Positions 57,205-64,000 of a stretch of 64,000 nt of DNA are shown piece by piece. A program made the position numbers and the translations under genes. The DNA lies in the NCBI RefSeq assembly GCF_025950095.1, contig NZ_JAPDDR010000001.1:558001-622000 (forward strand), given 5' to 3'. The notes beneath the pieces are model-generated. The model had not been told where the DNA came from. It was given only the letters and a program-made list of their open reading frames with translations, and ran no database searches. Position 1 is the stretch's first letter. The number at the start of each line of letters is the position of its first letter. Source of the stretch: Luteolibacter rhizosphaerae. Lineage in GTDB: Bacteria > Verrucomicrobiota > Verrucomicrobiia > Verrucomicrobiales > Akkermansiaceae.

Positions 57205-57582
57205 ATGGGTCCCATCCGCTACTTCGCCGCGCTGCGTCCTCCGAAGCTCGTGCTCTGGTGCTACCTCGCTTGGTACTTCGCGGTGGTCGCCTGCTACTTC
57301 GATCCCTCGCCCGCCATTTGGCTCTCCGCCCTCGGGATCTCCGGCTTGATCGGCATCGCCCTGATCTTCGCCACCGGTGTCCCCGGCCAGCGCATGGACC
57401 CATGGACGAAGTTCCGCCTCTTTCTCTTTCCCTTTTGCGTGTCGAGCTATTCGACGCTGATCAAGGGCAAGGGTTTCATCCTGCTTTTCCCCACTCAGGC
57501 GAAGCCCCTGGTCGCGGGCATCGCCGCCTGTGCGGGCATGCTGCTCGTCCATTTCATTTGCCGGACGCTTCGCCGCGCCTAG
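57205..57582 (+). CDS. Small membrane protein of unknown function
   Basis: A 125-residue membrane protein with three or four helices (about 14-34, 38-58, 70-88 and 102-120). I do not recognise a family. ATG at 57205 follows thiD by 11 bases, so the two are probably co-transcribed. Its last 4 bases overlap the convergent His-rich outer-membrane protein gene. The aromatic-rich first helix (LVLWCYLAWYFAVVACYF) is the most distinctive feature. Confidence 0.75.
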   Translation: MGPIRYFAALRPPKLVLWCYLAWYFAVVACYFDPSPAIWLSALGISGLIGIALIFATGVPGQRMDPWTKFRLFLFPFCVSSYSTLIKGKGFILLFPTQAKPLVAGIAACAGMLLVHFICRTLRRA

Positions 57583-58868
57583 TGCCGGTGCCCGTGGTCT
57601 TCACCCACATCGAGCACGAATTGTAGCCACACGCTGTGCTCGTCCGCATAGCCGCCCAGACGGTCATAGGTGTACTGCACTCGGGTGTGCAGGTCAGCCA
57701 TCTCCGCCAGTTCGAAGCGTCTTCCCACGTTCGCCGCGGCACGCCAGCGCCGCTCGTTGCCGGCCATCCGGTTCCCGGAGACCCACTCTACCCGGCTCCC
57801 CGCGGTCCAGTCCTTCGCGAACTCACAGCCGCAGGCCAGATAGATCCCAAGCTCGTCGTAGTCGCCCTTGATTCCCGCTTCATCCCGCGCTTCCACCGCG
57901 CGGTAGAAGGCCTCGCCCTGCCACCAGATCGGGAAGCCGCCCAGCTCCCGGTCTCCTCCCACATCCGCTCCCGCGGTCCACGTGCTGCGGCCGAATCCGT
58001 TCTGCCCCGCCGCGAAGGAAATGCCCGCCCGGTCCACCGGCCCTTGCTCCACCTTTCTCTCCAGGCGGCCGAAGAAAAAGCCGTCGCCCAAATAAGCCTG
58101 CTCCGGGTCATACACCCCTCCGTTCCCGGCAAAGCCGTGCGAGTGGTGCTCGTGACCGTGCTCCTCCTCTTCCTCTCCTTCTTCTTCGTGATGCTCCCCG
58201 GCGTGCTCGATTCCCTCCAAGTACGCCTCGCGTCGTAGTTCCCGCTGCGAGCCGTGGGAGTGCTCGCGCGCTTGTCCGTAGCCGAAGTGGATCGTCCACC
58301 GGTCCTGCGTTCCCGGCAGTGACCACGCCAGCTCGCCACCCTGCACCACCAGTCCTTCCTCGCCTAGCAGGCGGATCATCGAGATCGGCGGTTCCACGAA
58401 GCGCCGCGCATGCAGGTGCAGCGTGTTCTCGTAGCCGAAGGGCGCGAAGAACTGGCCGGCCCGGATGCTCACGCCGCCTGGCAGCTTCGCCGCGGCGAAG
58501 GCCTCTTCCCACTCGCCGTCCCAGCCGTCGAAGTTGTCCCAGAAGACATTGTGGTTCGCATGCAGTGAGACCGACTCTCCCAGTCCTGCCACCACGCCCA
58601 GCTCGATTCCCTGCAGGTTGAATCCATCGTCGATCGGCGCATGGCTCCCACGGATCAGCCCCAGATTCTTTTCCGAGGTGGAACCGCCCAGCGCGATCGC
58701 TGCATTAAGGTGGGGGTCCAGCCGGAACCAGCCCTCCTTCTCCTCGGTTGCATGCGAATGCCCGTGATGGTCGTGATCGTGCCCGGAGTGGTCATGACCA
58801 TCCGCCGCCATCAGCACGGGGGCGAGACACAGTAAGAGGGGGAGTGAGCTGATAAGCGCGCGCAGCAT
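57579..58868 (-). CDS. His-rich outer-membrane beta-barrel protein of the zinc locus
   Basis: A 429-residue outer-membrane protein. The signal peptide (MLRALISSLPLLLCLAPVLM) is followed by HDHSGHDHDHHGHSH, a metal-binding His cluster. A second acidic/His patch lies in the middle (EEEEEHGHEHHSHG) and a third at the very end (EDHGHRH). The rest shows the alternating pattern of a beta-barrel (GVSIRAGQFFAPFGYENTLH), resembling zinc-regulated outer-membrane proteins. ATG at 58868 is preferred because the 58928 extension is not signal-like. An 18-base element lies 17-34 bases upstream of the start and matches that at the TonB receptor. Zinc binding is inferred. Confidence 0.85.
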   Translation of the reverse strand: MLRALISSLPLLLCLAPVLMAADGHDHSGHDHDHHGHSHATEEKEGWFRLDPHLNAAIALGGSTSEKNLGLIRGSHAPIDDGFNLQGIELGVVAGLGESVSLHANHNVFWDNFDGWDGEWEEAFAAAKLPGGVSIRAGQFFAPFGYENTLHLHARRFVEPPISMIRLLGEEGLVVQGGELAWSLPGTQDRWTIHFGYGQAREHSHGSQRELRREAYLEGIEHAGEHHEEEGEEEEEHGHEHHSHGFAGNGGVYDPEQAYLGDGFFFGRLERKVEQGPVDRAGISFAAGQNGFGRSTWTAGADVGGDRELGGFPIWWQGEAFYRAVEARDEAGIKGDYDELGIYLACGCEFAKDWTAGSRVEWVSGNRMAGNERRWRAAANVGRRFELAEMADLHTRVQYTYDRLGGYADEHSVWLQFVLDVGEDHGHRH

Positions 58869-58884
58869 TTTTGCCACAAAGGGA

Positions 58885-58902
58885 CTAATGTAATAAAAGT
58901 GC
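58885..58902 (-). promoter_or_regulatory. Shared 18-base element, copy 1 (candidate metal-repressor operator)
   Basis: CTAATGTAATAAAAGTGC (plus-strand sequence) lies 17-34 bases upstream of the His-rich outer-membrane protein start. Its second copy at 61129-61146 differs in only 2 of 18 positions and has the same orientation relative to its gene. The core resembles AT-rich Zur-type boxes (AATGxxAT-like) and is weakly palindromic. Confidence 0.65.
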
Positions 58903-58933
58903 AAGCGCGTATTTTTGACGTGAACCAAGAGTC

Positions 58934-61099
58934 TCAGAATTCATGCCGCAGTCCTAGGGAGAGCCCGCGGCCGGGCAGGGGAGCCACGTCCTTGCGGAAG
59001 GAGGTCGAGACCCGCCCCTCCTCATCGAGCAGATTGCTGAGGCGGAGGAAGAACTCGAATTTTTGCCCCTCCACCGGCAACTCCCAGTTCATGTCGGCAT
59101 TTACCAGCGTGTAGTCGTCGCTCGGCAGCTCTGCACGCGGAGCCGGTTTCACCCGCTCCTGCGCGGTCGCATGGCGTGCTTCCAAGCCCACGGTCACACG
59201 GTCGTTCTTCCACTCCACCCTCGTTCCGAATCGCAGCGGCGGCATCCGCGGGATCGGTTCGTGGTCGCTGCGGTTCTCCGCCCGCACATAGTCGCTCATC
59301 AGGTTCAGACGCAGCCCCGGCATGATCTCCCAATCGATCTCCGCTTCGAATCCGGTGAAAGTGGCGGCGCGCTCGATGTACTGCACCGCCCGCCCGAAGC
59401 CGCCGGTCAGCTCCGGTGCCTCTTGCAGGAAGATGAAGTTGTCAAAGTCGTAGTGGTAGCCATTCACCCGGGCATTCACCGGCCCCTTCTCCGCCTCGAT
59501 CCCCAGCTCCACTCCCAGCGATGCCTCGGTGGACAGCGGCGTGCCATCCATGTCCCCGCCGATGAGGAAGCGCCCGATCCCGGCATTGTGCCAGAAGGCA
59601 TAGCGCTCCGTCGCGGTGGGGAGCCGCTCGATCCTCGATGCCATGCCGGTGATGGCCAGCCGGTCCATCCCCGCAAAGCCCTCGCGATCCCATGTGAGCG
59701 CGGAGGACAGGCTCTGCGAATACCCGCTCTCACCGCGCACATAGCCGGATTGCTCCGAGCTTAGGGCCTTCACCCGGCTCGCTTCCAGCCGGTAGCCGAG
59801 TTGGCCGGTCCATTCGCCGGATTGGTATTTTTCTAACAGATAGATCCCTTCGCCCTTCCCCCGGAGCTCGTTCCGCGCCTGCTGGAAGTCGGGCGGCGGA
59901 TAGATCGCGCGGGTCGCCGTGAGCTGCTCCATGTTCGCGCTGATTCCCGCCGTCCCGCTGAGGCGTCCGTCCAGTGCCTCGTGCCTGACGTCGAGCCGCG
60001 CCTCGAAGGCATCCTTCGCCAGGATGGTATCCGCGTAGTCCCGTCCCGCGTCTTTGCCCAGCCCGCGGAATAGCTCTTCATGATCGTAGTCCGCGTAGCC
60101 CAGTTTCAGGTCGATCCCCTTCACGGGGCCTTGCTCGGGAGCGAGGCTCGCTTCCAAGTCGAGCCGGTCCTGCATCAGCTCCAGCGTGTAATCGCCGAAG
60201 AGGTCGGTGGCATCGCCCGGATAGAGGTAGGGCACGCCATACCTCGTATCGAAGCGCGAGTACGAGATCCCTAGTCGCAGCGGACTCTGCTCCGGGATTA
60301 GGGACAGCCCAGCGGACCAAGTGCTGCACTGGTGAGCGGAGTTCGGCAGCATCCCGTCGGGATTCGGAACATCGATCAATGCTCCGCTTCCGGGCTGGTA
60401 GATTTGCGGGTTCTCCAGTGCTTGGTAGGCGGGAGTCCGCGCCCGCCCGCCAATCGCGATGTCTTCCGCCTTCCGCGCCGAGCCGGTGAAACGCAGCACC
60501 CAGGGACCGGTTGCCAGCGAGAGATGGCCCGCCCCCGCTCGACCGCTTCCTTGGCTGTCATAGCGGGTCTCCCATGCTCCGGAGACCTCCTTCTCCATCC
60601 GCTCACGTGCGATCACCTTGCTCCGTGCATTCACCGCCCCGCCGATCGCGGAGTTCCCGTAGAGCAGGGATGCCGGACCACGATGAATCTCGATTCCGTC
60701 GAGCAGTGCGGGCTCCAGCGCCACGCCGTGATCCGGGCTGATATCCGAGAGATCGAAGGTGCCCAGATCGTCCCGCAGCATCCGCACCCGCACTCCCTCG
60801 AATCCGCGCAACACCGGTCGCGATGCCCCGGGGCCGAAGTATCCGGAGGAAACCCCGGGCTCCCACGCCAGCGTTTCGCCGAGGCTCGCCTGCGCATTCC
60901 TCCGCAGCACCTCTTCCGGAATCGACTGCACCTTCTGGATCGAGAAATCCGCGAGGGAAGGGGGAATATCCCCGCCCGAATCGGCGGTGACCACGATTTC
61001 TTCCAAGGCCTCCTCCTCCGGCAACTCCTCCAAAAGATCCTGTCCTCGAAGGATCCATGTCATTCCAAGAAAGCTTGCTATCGCACACCGTAGGCGCAT
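58934..61099 (-). CDS. ZnuD-like TonB-dependent outer-membrane receptor
   Basis: A 721-residue TonB-dependent receptor. After the signal peptide is a TonB-box-like EEIVVTA (33-39). The plug contains SLGETLAWEPGVSSGYFGPG, GASRPVLRGFEGVRVRMLRD, ISPDHGVALEPALLDGIEI and HRGPASLLYGNSAIGGAVNA, closely following the plug of ZnuD zinc/haem receptors as I remember them. The barrel ends with the terminal Phe (LSLGLRHEF) recognised by BAM. ATG is at 61099. A TATAAA -10-like box on the minus strand (61120-61125) is adjacent to the second 18-base element. Uptake of zinc or a zinc complex is the best guess; iron or another metal cannot be excluded. Confidence 0.9.
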   Translation of the reverse strand: MRLRCAIASFLGMTWILRGQDLLEELPEEEALEEIVVTADSGGDIPPSLADFSIQKVQSIPEEVLRRNAQASLGETLAWEPGVSSGYFGPGASRPVLRGFEGVRVRMLRDDLGTFDLSDISPDHGVALEPALLDGIEIHRGPASLLYGNSAIGGAVNARSKVIARERMEKEVSGAWETRYDSQGSGRAGAGHLSLATGPWVLRFTGSARKAEDIAIGGRARTPAYQALENPQIYQPGSGALIDVPNPDGMLPNSAHQCSTWSAGLSLIPEQSPLRLGISYSRFDTRYGVPYLYPGDATDLFGDYTLELMQDRLDLEASLAPEQGPVKGIDLKLGYADYDHEELFRGLGKDAGRDYADTILAKDAFEARLDVRHEALDGRLSGTAGISANMEQLTATRAIYPPPDFQQARNELRGKGEGIYLLEKYQSGEWTGQLGYRLEASRVKALSSEQSGYVRGESGYSQSLSSALTWDREGFAGMDRLAITGMASRIERLPTATERYAFWHNAGIGRFLIGGDMDGTPLSTEASLGVELGIEAEKGPVNARVNGYHYDFDNFIFLQEAPELTGGFGRAVQYIERAATFTGFEAEIDWEIMPGLRLNLMSDYVRAENRSDHEPIPRMPPLRFGTRVEWKNDRVTVGLEARHATAQERVKPAPRAELPSDDYTLVNADMNWELPVEGQKFEFFLRLSNLLDEEGRVSTSFRKDVAPLPGRGLSLGLRHEF

Positions 61100-61128
61100 G
61101 AAAAAAAGATGCGTATGAATTTATATTG

Positions 61129-61146
61129 CTAATGCAATAAAAATGC
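61129..61146 (-). promoter_or_regulatory. Shared 18-base element, copy 2 (candidate metal-repressor operator)
   Basis: CTAATGCAATAAAAATGC (plus-strand sequence) lies 30-47 bases upstream of the TonB receptor start and immediately upstream of its TATAAA box at 61120-61125. It also overlaps the ATG at 61143 of the divergent anchor-M gene, so one bound repressor could control both directions. Confidence 0.7.
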
Positions 61147-62828
61147 GAAAAGGCTGCGTCGTGCCCGGACGACTCCTGCCACTCCTGCTCCTCGCCCCGG
61201 CGCTTGCCGCTTCGGCCGCGTCTCCCCGTATGGATCTCCTCTACGGGCACTACGAGATCCACCTCGATTATCAGCCCGTTCCGGGAAACCCCGACGCCGG
61301 CTGGAACTTCTCCGTCTCCTACGATCGGGATGACGATTTCAGCTCGCAGGATGGTGTGGTGCGCATGGATCCGGACTCGACCGTGATCCTCGCTTCGCCC
61401 GCCACCGCGAGGGTCGTCCCCACGCCGCCCGGCACCTTCAGCCGATTCGGTCCTGCTGGCACCCCGCTCTGGGTCCTGCCGCAGAATCTCCTGTCCGGCA
61501 CCCCTTATCTTGGCGTGCGGACCACCATGGCCGCGGGCCTCTTCCAAGCCCGCGTCGGGAATAGCTACTCGCCGAATGCTCAGGGCAGTGTCTCCATGCG
61601 CTTGGTCTCGATGACCGGCACCGGTCCGGCGGCGGGAGGGCAGTTCGCCACGTGGAAGACCGAAAGCCTCGGCACCACCGTCTTCTCCTTCGACAGCACC
61701 GATGGCATCGGCGCGGCCGATGAGATCCCTACGATCCCGGTCTCCTCGCACACGCACTACAACTGGGGCTTCACCAAGCCGGGAACCTACGAGCTCACCT
61801 TCGAGGCGAAGGGCAAGCTCATGCCAGCTCACGGGAATGTCCTCACTTCCGCACGCAGGACCTTCCGCTTCGCGGTGCCCTTCTCATCTTCGGTAGCAGC
61901 CGGAGCCTCGGTCCGCGTGTTACCTGCTCTTGCCGTCGCGAATCCCGCGGAGTCGGTGGCTTATCCCCCGGATCGCGTGATGATCGAAGCGCGGCAGCCT
62001 GCCGCGGCTCATCCCTTGCTGCCCGGTGCGCAGTGGCAGGTCCCCATGAGTTTTGGCACCGGGCCGCTTACCATGGCGAATGGAGTCGGAATCGACCCCG
62101 CCCTCGTCTCGGCCGGCCTGCCCGCCTCCGCACAGACCGGCCTCGGCCTGAAGATCGTGAGCTTCAGCGGCCCCGGGAACTTCGCCTTCCTCGATGGCAG
62201 CACCGCCTTGGCCGACGGGGTGGGGGATGTCCTGCCACTCGATCCCGGAACTACGAGGAACCTCGTAGCAGCCTTCACCGCAAAGGGAATCTTTCGCCTC
62301 GGCGTCTTGGTAGAAGGCGTGCCGGAAAGCACGGGGCCCTTCACTCTCGTCTTCGGCTCCGGACTCGGCGTCGATTTTACTTATCAGGATTGGAGCGCGA
62401 GCTTCGAGGCAGCGGCCAACTTGGCGCCGGGAACCCTTGCCGATCCCCAAGCCGATCCGGATCGCGATGGCCTCACCAATTCCGCGGAGTTCCTCCTCTT
62501 CTGGCATGGCCTTGACCCTTCCAGGCCGGATGCCCGGCTCCAACCGGCGTTGACGCGCGACGGGGCGGGGCGTCCGGCCTTCCCTTTCCTGAGGGATACT
62601 TACAAGGACCCTCTCAATGGCTCCTCATGGCAACTCAGGCCGGGCCGCTCCGCGGATCTTCATGCGTGGCACTACCGTTCGCCACAGTCCCCCGGCTTCC
62701 CCATGGAGCTCTTCGAGAATGGCGCGGAGGAGGGGAATGCCTGGGGCCGCATCATGAAGCGCCGCCTCGATGATCTTTCCGCGAATCCTTCGCGTGCCTT
62801 CTTCCGGTTCGATGTGACCGGGCCCTGA
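61143..62828 (+). CDS. Surface protein with choice-of-anchor M domains and C-terminal sorting-like module
   Basis: A 561-residue secreted protein. After the signal peptide (LLPLLLLAPALAASA) come two anchor-M/TIGR03769-like domains: the first ends with the motif SHTHYNWGFTKPGTYELTF, the second with FTAKGIFRLGVLVEG. In Actinobacteria such domains belong to anchored proteins linked to zinc/manganese-type ABC transporters. Residues about 414-561 form the C-terminal module (QADPDRDGLTNSAEF ... AFFRFDV). The start may be ATG 61143, which overlaps the operator; GTG 61161 with AAAAGG seven bases before it is an alternative with a better ribosome site. It is divergent from the receptor and heads the anchor-M operon. 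Confidence 0.82.
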   Translation: MRKGCVVPGRLLPLLLLAPALAASAASPRMDLLYGHYEIHLDYQPVPGNPDAGWNFSVSYDRDDDFSSQDGVVRMDPDSTVILASPATARVVPTPPGTFSRFGPAGTPLWVLPQNLLSGTPYLGVRTTMAAGLFQARVGNSYSPNAQGSVSMRLVSMTGTGPAAGGQFATWKTESLGTTVFSFDSTDGIGAADEIPTIPVSSHTHYNWGFTKPGTYELTFEAKGKLMPAHGNVLTSARRTFRFAVPFSSSVAAGASVRVLPALAVANPAESVAYPPDRVMIEARQPAAAHPLLPGAQWQVPMSFGTGPLTMANGVGIDPALVSAGLPASAQTGLGLKIVSFSGPGNFAFLDGSTALADGVGDVLPLDPGTTRNLVAAFTAKGIFRLGVLVEGVPESTGPFTLVFGSGLGVDFTYQDWSASFEAAANLAPGTLADPQADPDRDGLTNSAEFLLFWHGLDPSRPDARLQPALTRDGAGRPAFPFLRDTYKDPLNGSSWQLRPGRSADLHAWHYRSPQSPGFPMELFENGAEEGNAWGRIMKRRLDDLSANPSRAFFRFDVTGP

Positions 62829-62839
62829 CAACACCAACC

Positions 62840-63565
62840 ATGACCATGAACATGACAACTCCCCCTTCGCTCCGCACCCTGCCTGCTCTCTGCTCGGCCA
62901 TGGCGCTCTTGTGCCTGCCTTCCTCCGCCGCGCTCTACACCAGCGGTCACGGCGACTTCGGCGTGGCCTATGAAGCGGGCGACTTCCATTTCCACTTCCA
63001 TGCCGATGGCGCCACGGTCGATGGCTCCGTGACGGGGGATGTCGAGTATGACATCCCCGATGTCACCGTCATCGCCAGCACCTCGTCCTCGCTCGTCCTA
63101 CCCATCGATTTCCCGGCCTTGGGTGCCGGCACCGGTCAGACCATCTGGGTGCTCCCGGAGGTTCAGGATCCCGATCTTCCTTTCCTGGGCTTGGCCACGG
63201 AAGAGCTCGAACTCTCCGAGTGGGGAAACATCACCTTCACCTTGGGCAATGTGACCTCGCCCAGCGGCAATGGTGAATTCGCCCTCTGGCAGTCGGGCTC
63301 CTTCGGCGAGGTCCTCTTGCGCATGTCCACTGCCGATCCCGGAAGCGATTCCCTCATCCTGCCGCCCGGCAGCCACGCTCACTACAACTGGGGCTTCACC
63401 GAGGCCGGCACTTGGCAGATCGAGATGACCGTGAGCGGTACTCACGTGACCGATGGGTTCCAGTCCTCCACGGAGACCCTTACCTTCCACGTGGTGCCTG
63501 AGCCCGCCTCCGCCCTGTTAGGGAGCTTGGGCATGCTCGGCCTCCTTCTCCGCCGTCGCCGCTGA
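62840..63565 (+). CDS. PEP-CTERM-anchored choice-of-anchor M protein
   Basis: A 241-residue secreted protein with one anchor-M domain. The signal peptide is followed by TSGHGDFGVAYEAGDFHFHF, a His-rich stretch near the mature N-terminus, and by the family motif SHAHYNWGFTEAGTWQIEM. The C-terminus is a PEP-CTERM sorting signal: VPEPASA, a hydrophobic helix (LLGSLGMLGLLL) and RRRR, so it is probably processed by an exosortase. Three closely spaced ATGs (62840, 62846, 62852) could start it. It begins 11 bases after the previous gene, so both are co-transcribed. A zinc-related surface role is inferred from the domain and neighbours. Confidence 0.88.
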   Translation: MTMNMTTPPSLRTLPALCSAMALLCLPSSAALYTSGHGDFGVAYEAGDFHFHFHADGATVDGSVTGDVEYDIPDVTVIASTSSSLVLPIDFPALGAGTGQTIWVLPEVQDPDLPFLGLATEELELSEWGNITFTLGNVTSPSGNGEFALWQSGSFGEVLLRMSTADPGSDSLILPPGSHAHYNWGFTEAGTWQIEMTVSGTHVTDGFQSSTETLTFHVVPEPASALLGSLGMLGLLLRRRR

Positions 63566-63572
63566 TCGCATC

Positions 63573-64000
63573 ATGGCTACGCGGAACATGGCGATTCCAT
63601 CCCGCCTGCCGGATCTCTTCCGGGACCTGGCAGGCGGCTTCAAGCAACAGATGTTCTTTTGGGGCCTAGATGTGGTGAACCCGGGTGGAAACCTGCTCGT
63701 CCGGCAGGGCTTCTGTCGCGAGCCGTCCGCGGGGCTGAAGGGCACCAGCCACTACAAACTGCCGTGGCAGGGCGGCAGCATCGAGCTGCATGGTGCTTGT
63801 GCAGGCTGGTTCTCCCGGCAGGGTCAGGGCTTCATTTACGTCCGGCCCTTGGGTCGTTGCCATGTCTGGAACGGCGGCCAATCCGCCATCCCGGGCGAGT
63901 GGCCCTCTCCCTTCCTGAAGACGGATGACCTGCAGCGGATGCATGCGCTGGCCGCACCCTTCATCGCGTGGTGGCTGCACTCGGAGGACTGGATCGCGCG
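63573..64000 (+). CDS. Unknown protein of the zinc locus (3' end outside window)
   Basis: An open frame of 142 codons runs from ATG 63573 to the right edge without a stop. No signal peptide or membrane helix is visible, so it may be cytoplasmic. It contains Trp- and Cys-containing stretches (IELHGACAGWFSRQGQGFIY, RPLGRCHVWNGGQ). I do not recognise a family. It starts 7 bases after the PEP-CTERM gene, so it belongs to the same operon. ATG at 63588 is an alternative start. Confidence 0.7.
   Translation, partial: MATRNMAIPSRLPDLFRDLAGGFKQQMFFWGLDVVNPGGNLLVRQGFCREPSAGLKGTSHYKLPWQGGSIELHGACAGWFSRQGQGFIYVRPLGRCHVWNGGQSAIPGEWPSPFLKTDDLQRMHALAAPFIAWWLHSEDWIA

Follow-up and report, generated by a model that had tools for sequence, protein, structure and literature searches.

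A candidate Zur-controlled zinc locus of Verrucomicrobiota joins two anchor-M surface proteins to a ZnuD-like TonB-dependent receptor

The route of zinc from secreted proteins into Gram-negative cells is an open question, and in the locus described here the genes for a candidate carrier and a candidate receptor lie side by side. The locus is part of G000:C1:558001-622000 (the whole 64-kb stretch analysed, called the window below). The genome comprises 6.2 Mb in 31 contigs, and its named relatives belong to the Akkermansiaceae/Verrucomicrobiaceae within the Verrucomicrobiota. An earlier note on this DNA had proposed a zinc-acquisition locus composed of a ZnuD-like TonB receptor, a His-rich barrel, two surface proteins with the choice-of-anchor-M domain (encoded by genes here named ancM1 and ancM2) and an unknown gene; all were present at the given place. 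The note had reasoned from His content and family resemblance, and comparison bore out its inference: we consider it very likely that the cluster serves zinc, because its predicted operator is shared with znuA of the same genome, because ZigA, ZnuABC and COG0523 genes recur around its homologues, because the receptor keeps, as invariant residues, three of the four that bind zinc in ZnuD, and because C. diphtheriae proteins with this domain bind zinc and are under Zur control (PMC6711530, PMC12445094).

The receptor gene (58934-61099, minus strand, 721 residues) and ancM1 (61143-62828, plus strand, 561 residues) diverge from a common promoter. Upstream regions examined in other genomes contained a palindrome, TTGCAA-N5-TTGCAA. 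A plain count of this sequence with three mismatches could not separate true sites from noise in the GC-rich genome, and therefore a weight matrix (23 bp, built from 22 sites of other genomes only) was applied to the window and to six further stretches of its genome. Within the stretches examined, the highest score (30.9 bits) fell 28 bp before the znuA ATG on contig 9, followed by 26.0 bits at 61129-61151 (CTAATGCAATAAAAATGCGAAAA), common to the divergent receptor and ancM1 genes, and by 17.3 bits at 58885-58907 (CTAATGTAATAAAAGTGCAAGCG) in the promoter of the gene for the His-rich protein; the latter two rank first and second in the window. Because the matrix maxima of 20 shuffled windows ranged from 4.9 to 13.1 bits, the upstream element that had been described as common to the first three genes exceeds chance, and it consists of two boxes serving three genes. 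Genome-wide, the pattern TGCAAN6TGC matched 101 times, and among the 100 matches listed an A/T-only centre was found solely at the receptor/ancM1 promoter and at znuA. A further pattern, WATGYAAWWWAANTGCRA, was derived from the three sites of this genome, so that its zero-mismatch matches are circular and informative for specificity alone. The best boxes of six receptor promoters elsewhere (L112, L113, L115, L116, L117, L119) carried 2-3 mismatches, a level also attained by ~10% of 320-bp stretches drawn at random from those loci; the sole perfect box among the receptor promoters compared preceded a divergent receptor/zigA pair in a same-genus genome. Together these sites point to a candidate operator through which the cluster is, with high probability, under Zur control; as candidate Zur we propose the third of the Fur-family proteins of the genome (L067:7231-7656). 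The predicted operator at the divergent promoter covers the annotated ancM1 ATG (window 61133-61147), and the same was seen for several pseudopilin genes in other genomes. The starts of ancM1 and of the pseudopilin genes may therefore be mis-assigned and lie further downstream, or the operator may act at the start codon.

ZnuD-type receptors import zinc using TonB energy. In profile searches the best family of the window receptor was ZnuD (NF038289, E 1.9e-64, 218.5 bits), and ZnuD was also its closest solved structure (4rdr, E 9.9e-65; next PDB entry 2.9e-17). Since the score does not reach the equivalog cut-off of 950, the protein is ZnuD-like rather than ZnuD, as the note had worded it. HMMER alignments place D123, H124 and E342, invariant across the five receptors aligned, on the ZnuD zinc ligands D99, H100 and E340, while the fourth ligand, H499, aligns with N505; the adjacent H504 is present only in the window receptor among those compared (ligand identities are from PMC4557270, and the numbering of the ZnuD chain is offset by 14 from that of the paper). 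The receptor alignment contained no counterpart of the His-rich loop 3 of ZnuD, and the His content of the receptor is just 1.5%, with no HxH. A siderophore or cobalamin receptor in no conserved neighbourhood would have spoken against a zinc locus; the receptor is closest to ZnuD and, as described below, its neighbourhood is conserved.

These data also bear on whether the cluster might serve another metal (iron or heme, nickel, cobalt or manganese) under a Fur-type regulator. The receptor families are related, with the hemin receptor profile matching the window receptor at E 2.3e-28, the boxes of Fur-family proteins resemble each other, and related clusters contain FeoB-like GTPase/Gate genes. 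However, ZnuD lies far ahead of heme receptors in both profile searches, the operator is common to znuA, relatives encode ZigA at the level of the zinc-chaperone equivalog, and the domain of the surface proteins is Zur-controlled in Corynebacterium (PMC6711530), so that another metal seems improbable.

That domain was identified by profile in both surface proteins, as the note had claimed. AncM1 and the product of ancM2 (62840-63565, plus strand, 241 residues) score 87.3 and 113.6 bits with NF038134 (cut-off 55) and 50.7 and 43.8 bits with TIGR03769 (cut-off 30.9); the cut-off of TIGR03773 (190.3) was not reached, the score being 94.2. The HxD and HxH motifs lie at residues 40-42 and 203-205 of AncM1 and at 37-39 and 179-181 of AncM2, and both are kept in all verrucomicrobial anchor-M proteins compared. 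The PEP-CTERM anchor assigned to these proteins holds for AncM2 (TIGR02595, 17.2 against a cut-off of 16; the Pfam score of 20.3 is slightly under 20.7) but not for AncM1, which carries a DxDxDGxxN tail instead; the genome encodes one exosortase (E 8.1e-46). An AlphaFold2 model of AncM2 built from eight sequences (predicted local distance difference test, pLDDT, 85.6) is all-beta except for the PEP-CTERM helix and predicts a beta-sandwich. Its structural matches were merely generic beta-sandwiches (Foldseek template modelling score <= ~0.3 by query length), comparison with cupredoxins, fimbrial chaperones and the FmlH/FimH lectins gave VIA Z <= 6.8, and a profile search of the PDB yielded just weak matches to filamin immunoglobulin-like (Ig) domains (E 0.04); no structural relative is therefore claimed. 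In two other loci (L041:4913-8527 of genome G137, and L114) the short ancM2 is replaced by a gene for a long anchor-M protein, whose two domains are followed by His/Asp-rich stretches of the HDDDDHAHDGDDGHGHGDGSGH type.

Comparison of gene neighbourhoods, the check that the earlier note had proposed, showed that receptor and anchor-M genes are inherited together. A receptor-based scan of 84,980 species yielded 30 loci. A divergent ancM1-ancM2 pair stands opposite the receptor gene in 9/9 GTDB verrucomicrobial receptors with 42-66% identity, three of these nine loci being the same contigs as genomes already among the G-labelled set. Two loci (L112 and L113) keep the full window order ORF5-ancM2-ancM1/receptor-barrel, and the receptor/anchor-M pair recurs at loci L181 and L183, which belong to another order of the class; acidobacterial receptors with 25-31% identity have no anchor-M gene beside them, and two are near ORF5 homologues. 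ORF5 (63573-64163, plus strand, of which the window holds the part up to 64000) is the unknown gene of the note. It encodes a cytoplasmic-type protein of 196 residues from a family whose genes recur next to those for anchor-M, ZigA or receptor proteins, and is followed beyond the window, at window positions ~64166-65363 (L003:10166-11363), by a gene for a ZigA-type COG0523 GTPase, a zinc chaperone (NF038288). In 9 of 17 genomes a ZigA-family gene is no more than 10 kb away from an anchor-M gene (chance ~3e-18), and ORF5 homologues, ZnuD-like receptors, a pseudopilin and a pair formed by a FeoB-like protein and a flavin adenine dinucleotide (FAD) oxidoreductase are likewise recurrent neighbours. 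ZnuA-ZnuC-ZnuB operons with a gene for a His-rich protein ahead also recur around anchor-M genes, znuABC adjoining homologues in four other genomes; at the window locus no ATP-binding cassette (ABC) transporter genes were found.

An association by chance, or a general envelope function such as adhesion or biofilm formation, is contradicted by an order conserved across families and two orders, by the shared operator and by these co-location statistics. PEP-CTERM and DxDxDG-type tails are nonetheless common among verrucomicrobial surface proteins, the DxDxDGxxN tail of AncM1 is typical of structural surface proteins, and the beta-sandwich resembles adhesin and chaperone domains (Z < 7); on balance such an explanation appears most improbable.

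We therefore return to zinc and propose a relay, which from the comparative evidence is likely as a whole: repression by Zur, capture by the anchor-M proteins and import by the receptor. According to this model, when zinc is plentiful a Zur-type repressor bound to the TTGCAA-N5-TTGCAA boxes would shut the divergent cluster. Under zinc limitation, the two exported anchor-M proteins would bind zinc extracellularly through their HxD...HxH pocket, and the His-rich outer-membrane protein would concentrate or admit the metal. The ZnuD-like TonB receptor would then take zinc from the anchor-M and His-rich proteins and drive it into the periplasm, where the solitary box-preceded ZnuA (contig 9) would carry it onward to an inner-membrane permease, and ZigA would distribute it in the cytoplasm. 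The roles given here to the barrel and those conceivable for ORF5 are suggestions.

The least secure step is the transfer itself. Direct handover of zinc from anchor-M protein to receptor is put forward tentatively, and with it the possibility, which we hold with equal reserve, that anchor-M proteins are dedicated protein zincophores, which are exported, take up zinc extracellularly and are then unloaded by one co-evolving ZnuD-like receptor that has given up His-rich capture loops of its own. The main rival accepts a zinc locus and makes the anchor-M proteins a surface buffer or store, with receptor and barrel importing free or otherwise chelated zinc. Deletion of znuF/znuG restores growth of a C. 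diphtheriae ABC-transporter mutant and their over-expression limits growth, effects that fit a sequestering protein (PMC12445094), and ZnuD imports zinc without partners of the anchor-M type (PMC4557270). The same-genus receptor/zigA pair with the perfect box has no anchor-M genes, and hence these are not required by every such receptor. Set against the buffer are the strict pairing of the receptor clade with ancM1-ancM2 and the lack in the receptor of the ZnuD capture loops, which would leave capture to other proteins. A buffer role thus has a real but somewhat doubtful claim.

Several observations weigh against the relay. Besides the same-genus pair just described, anchor-M genes are sporadic: 18 of the 142 genomes of the order carry them, as do 28 of the 388 of the phylum, and none of five other same-genus genomes does. 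The receptor is under the ZnuD equivalog cut-off and, with Asn at the position of H499, is without the fourth zinc ligand. The contribution of the conserved His residues to zinc binding in vitro was inconclusive in C. diphtheriae (PMC12445094). Finally, what appears to be a one-base deletion near the P-loop breaks the zigA frame in this assembly.

The remaining components were characterized individually. The His-rich outer-membrane-type protein (57579-58868, minus strand, 429 residues, with a signal peptide) starts at ATG 58868 and not at TTG 58928 as in the mechanical open reading frame call. It contains 30 His (7.0%) and 12 HxH/HxD triplets, and its homologues adjoin znuA in four other genomes. 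No family scored above threshold, the nearest being a sub-threshold Porin_O_P match (E 0.0033), so that the description as a His-rich barrel stands for its composition, while the beta-barrel is a prediction. Members of the ORF5 family had no Pfam or NCBIfam match, and none of the structural matches to the ORF5 models was convincing (Foldseek E >= 0.77, VIA Z <= 4.1; best pLDDT 85.4, with two of five models below 50). The split zigA, whose frame breaks near L003:10233, scores 567 bits with NF038288 over 374 of 390 positions (17-390) against a cut-off of 600, which its relatives in other genomes exceed. It is the sole zigA of the genome, and zigA of genome G138 (L042) is split close to the same place; the break reflects either a sequencing error or a real loss. 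The box-preceded znuA (L064:8715-9644) is solitary, with no permease genes alongside, and its product may use another permease; another ABC system, which is encoded on contig 4 (L063:5573-9129) and includes a ZnuA-family protein, has no box. In other genomes a protein of ~148 residues without a family match is encoded between znuA and znuC (L044:6052-6498, L043:2989-3483, L045:9321-9821).

Two further groups of genes accompany the anchor-M genes elsewhere. A pseudopilin-like protein with an N-methylation signal, of the DUF1559/H-X9-DG type and with an invariant DHxH (L044:9131-9853, L046:8717-9439, L170:7639-8376 and others), adjoins them in ~11 of the 20 loci taken within the order and in 14 of the 20 taken across the wider phylum, and its start codon often lies under a zinc box. 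It may represent a second, pilus-type zinc surface protein. No gene for it was found at the window locus, and matches in the window genome span just the N-terminal half. In the second group, a FeoB-like GTPase/Gate protein, an FAD (Pyr_redox_3) oxidoreductase and an ORF5 homologue co-occur with anchor-M or ZnuD-like receptor genes (L043:5895-9416, L045:3394-6912, L046:4900-8476, L037:7174-10000, L115:657-3523 and L131:11836-15377, one Acidobacterium included). This set may encode a metal importer of the inner membrane that belongs to the zinc regulon and has not been described before.

That the domain has a role in zinc handling, and the concept of PEP-CTERM zinc proteins encoded near receptors, had already been published between 2019 and 2025. 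In the openly accessible literature we found no paper on anchor-M proteins of Verrucomicrobiota, on their pairing with a receptor or on the operator, and the gene combination, the operator and ORF5 appear to be undescribed. For Verrucomicrobiota the analysis thereby supplies a candidate operator of zinc genes, and it puts forward the pseudopilin, ORF5 and the FeoB-like protein as further members of the regulon. Because the genes for the candidate carrier and the candidate receptor are adjacent, divergent, under one operator and inherited together, handover becomes testable.

Among known systems, ZnuD of Neisseria/Acinetobacter shares with the window receptor the class of TonB-dependent zinc receptor, the closest structure and the residues D99, H100 and E340, but differs in having His at 499 and the His-rich clusters of loop 3, and the two are separated by the distance between 218 and 950 bits. 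The gene after ORF5 belongs to the same family as the COG0523 zinc GTPases ZigA, YciC and Zrg; such GTPases, like ZnuA, are members of many Zur regulons (PMC6103462), although here the frame is broken in the assembly.

The znu cluster of C. diphtheriae offers a close parallel for the surface proteins. Its HxD...HxH-domain proteins ZnuE, ZnuF, ZnuG, CmrA and CmrA2 are repressed by Zur and zinc (PMC6711530, PMC12445094), ZnuE and ZnuF bind zinc, and the conserved His matter in growth assays (PMC12445094). AncM1 and AncM2 have the same domain family, with HxD and HxH ~150 residues apart, and the regulon of Zur-regulated surface proteins likewise includes a COG0523-type GTPase, Zrg (PMC6711530, PMC6103462, PMC12445094). 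The corynebacterial cluster is Gram-positive, with sortase or unknown wall anchoring and an ABC transporter as partner (TIGR03769/TIGR03772/TIGR03773), and no recipient of zinc from its surface proteins is known (PMC12445094), whereas the window cluster combines PEP-CTERM sorting with a TonB receptor and an outer-membrane-type protein and contains no ABC genes. A zinc-binding surface family known from Gram-positive bacteria is thus joined here to a dedicated outer-membrane receptor.

The earlier note had thought such an arrangement unusual for a Gram-negative bacterium, but a PEP-CTERM zinc protein with receptor neighbours has a precedent in ZepA (All3515) of Anabaena. This secreted protein binds zinc, is under Zur control and carries both a PEP-CTERM signal and an Ig-like sandwich domain, and its homologues, including one in Luteolibacter yonseiensis, have COG0523 and TonB receptor genes nearby (PMC10957091). 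ZepA supports zinc uptake in Anabaena; its receptor is not known, and handover to an outer-membrane TonB receptor has been proposed (PMC10957091). ZepA is set apart by motif and description: it has a second domain, its motif H-X2-9-H-[FY]-H was absent from every anchor-M protein tested, and it has not been described as strictly paired, in divergent orientation, with a single clade of receptors. If the anchor-M proteins do act as zincophores, the locus would encode a genetically linked protein-carrier/receptor pair for zinc, comparable to hemophores and to azurin-OprC for copper.

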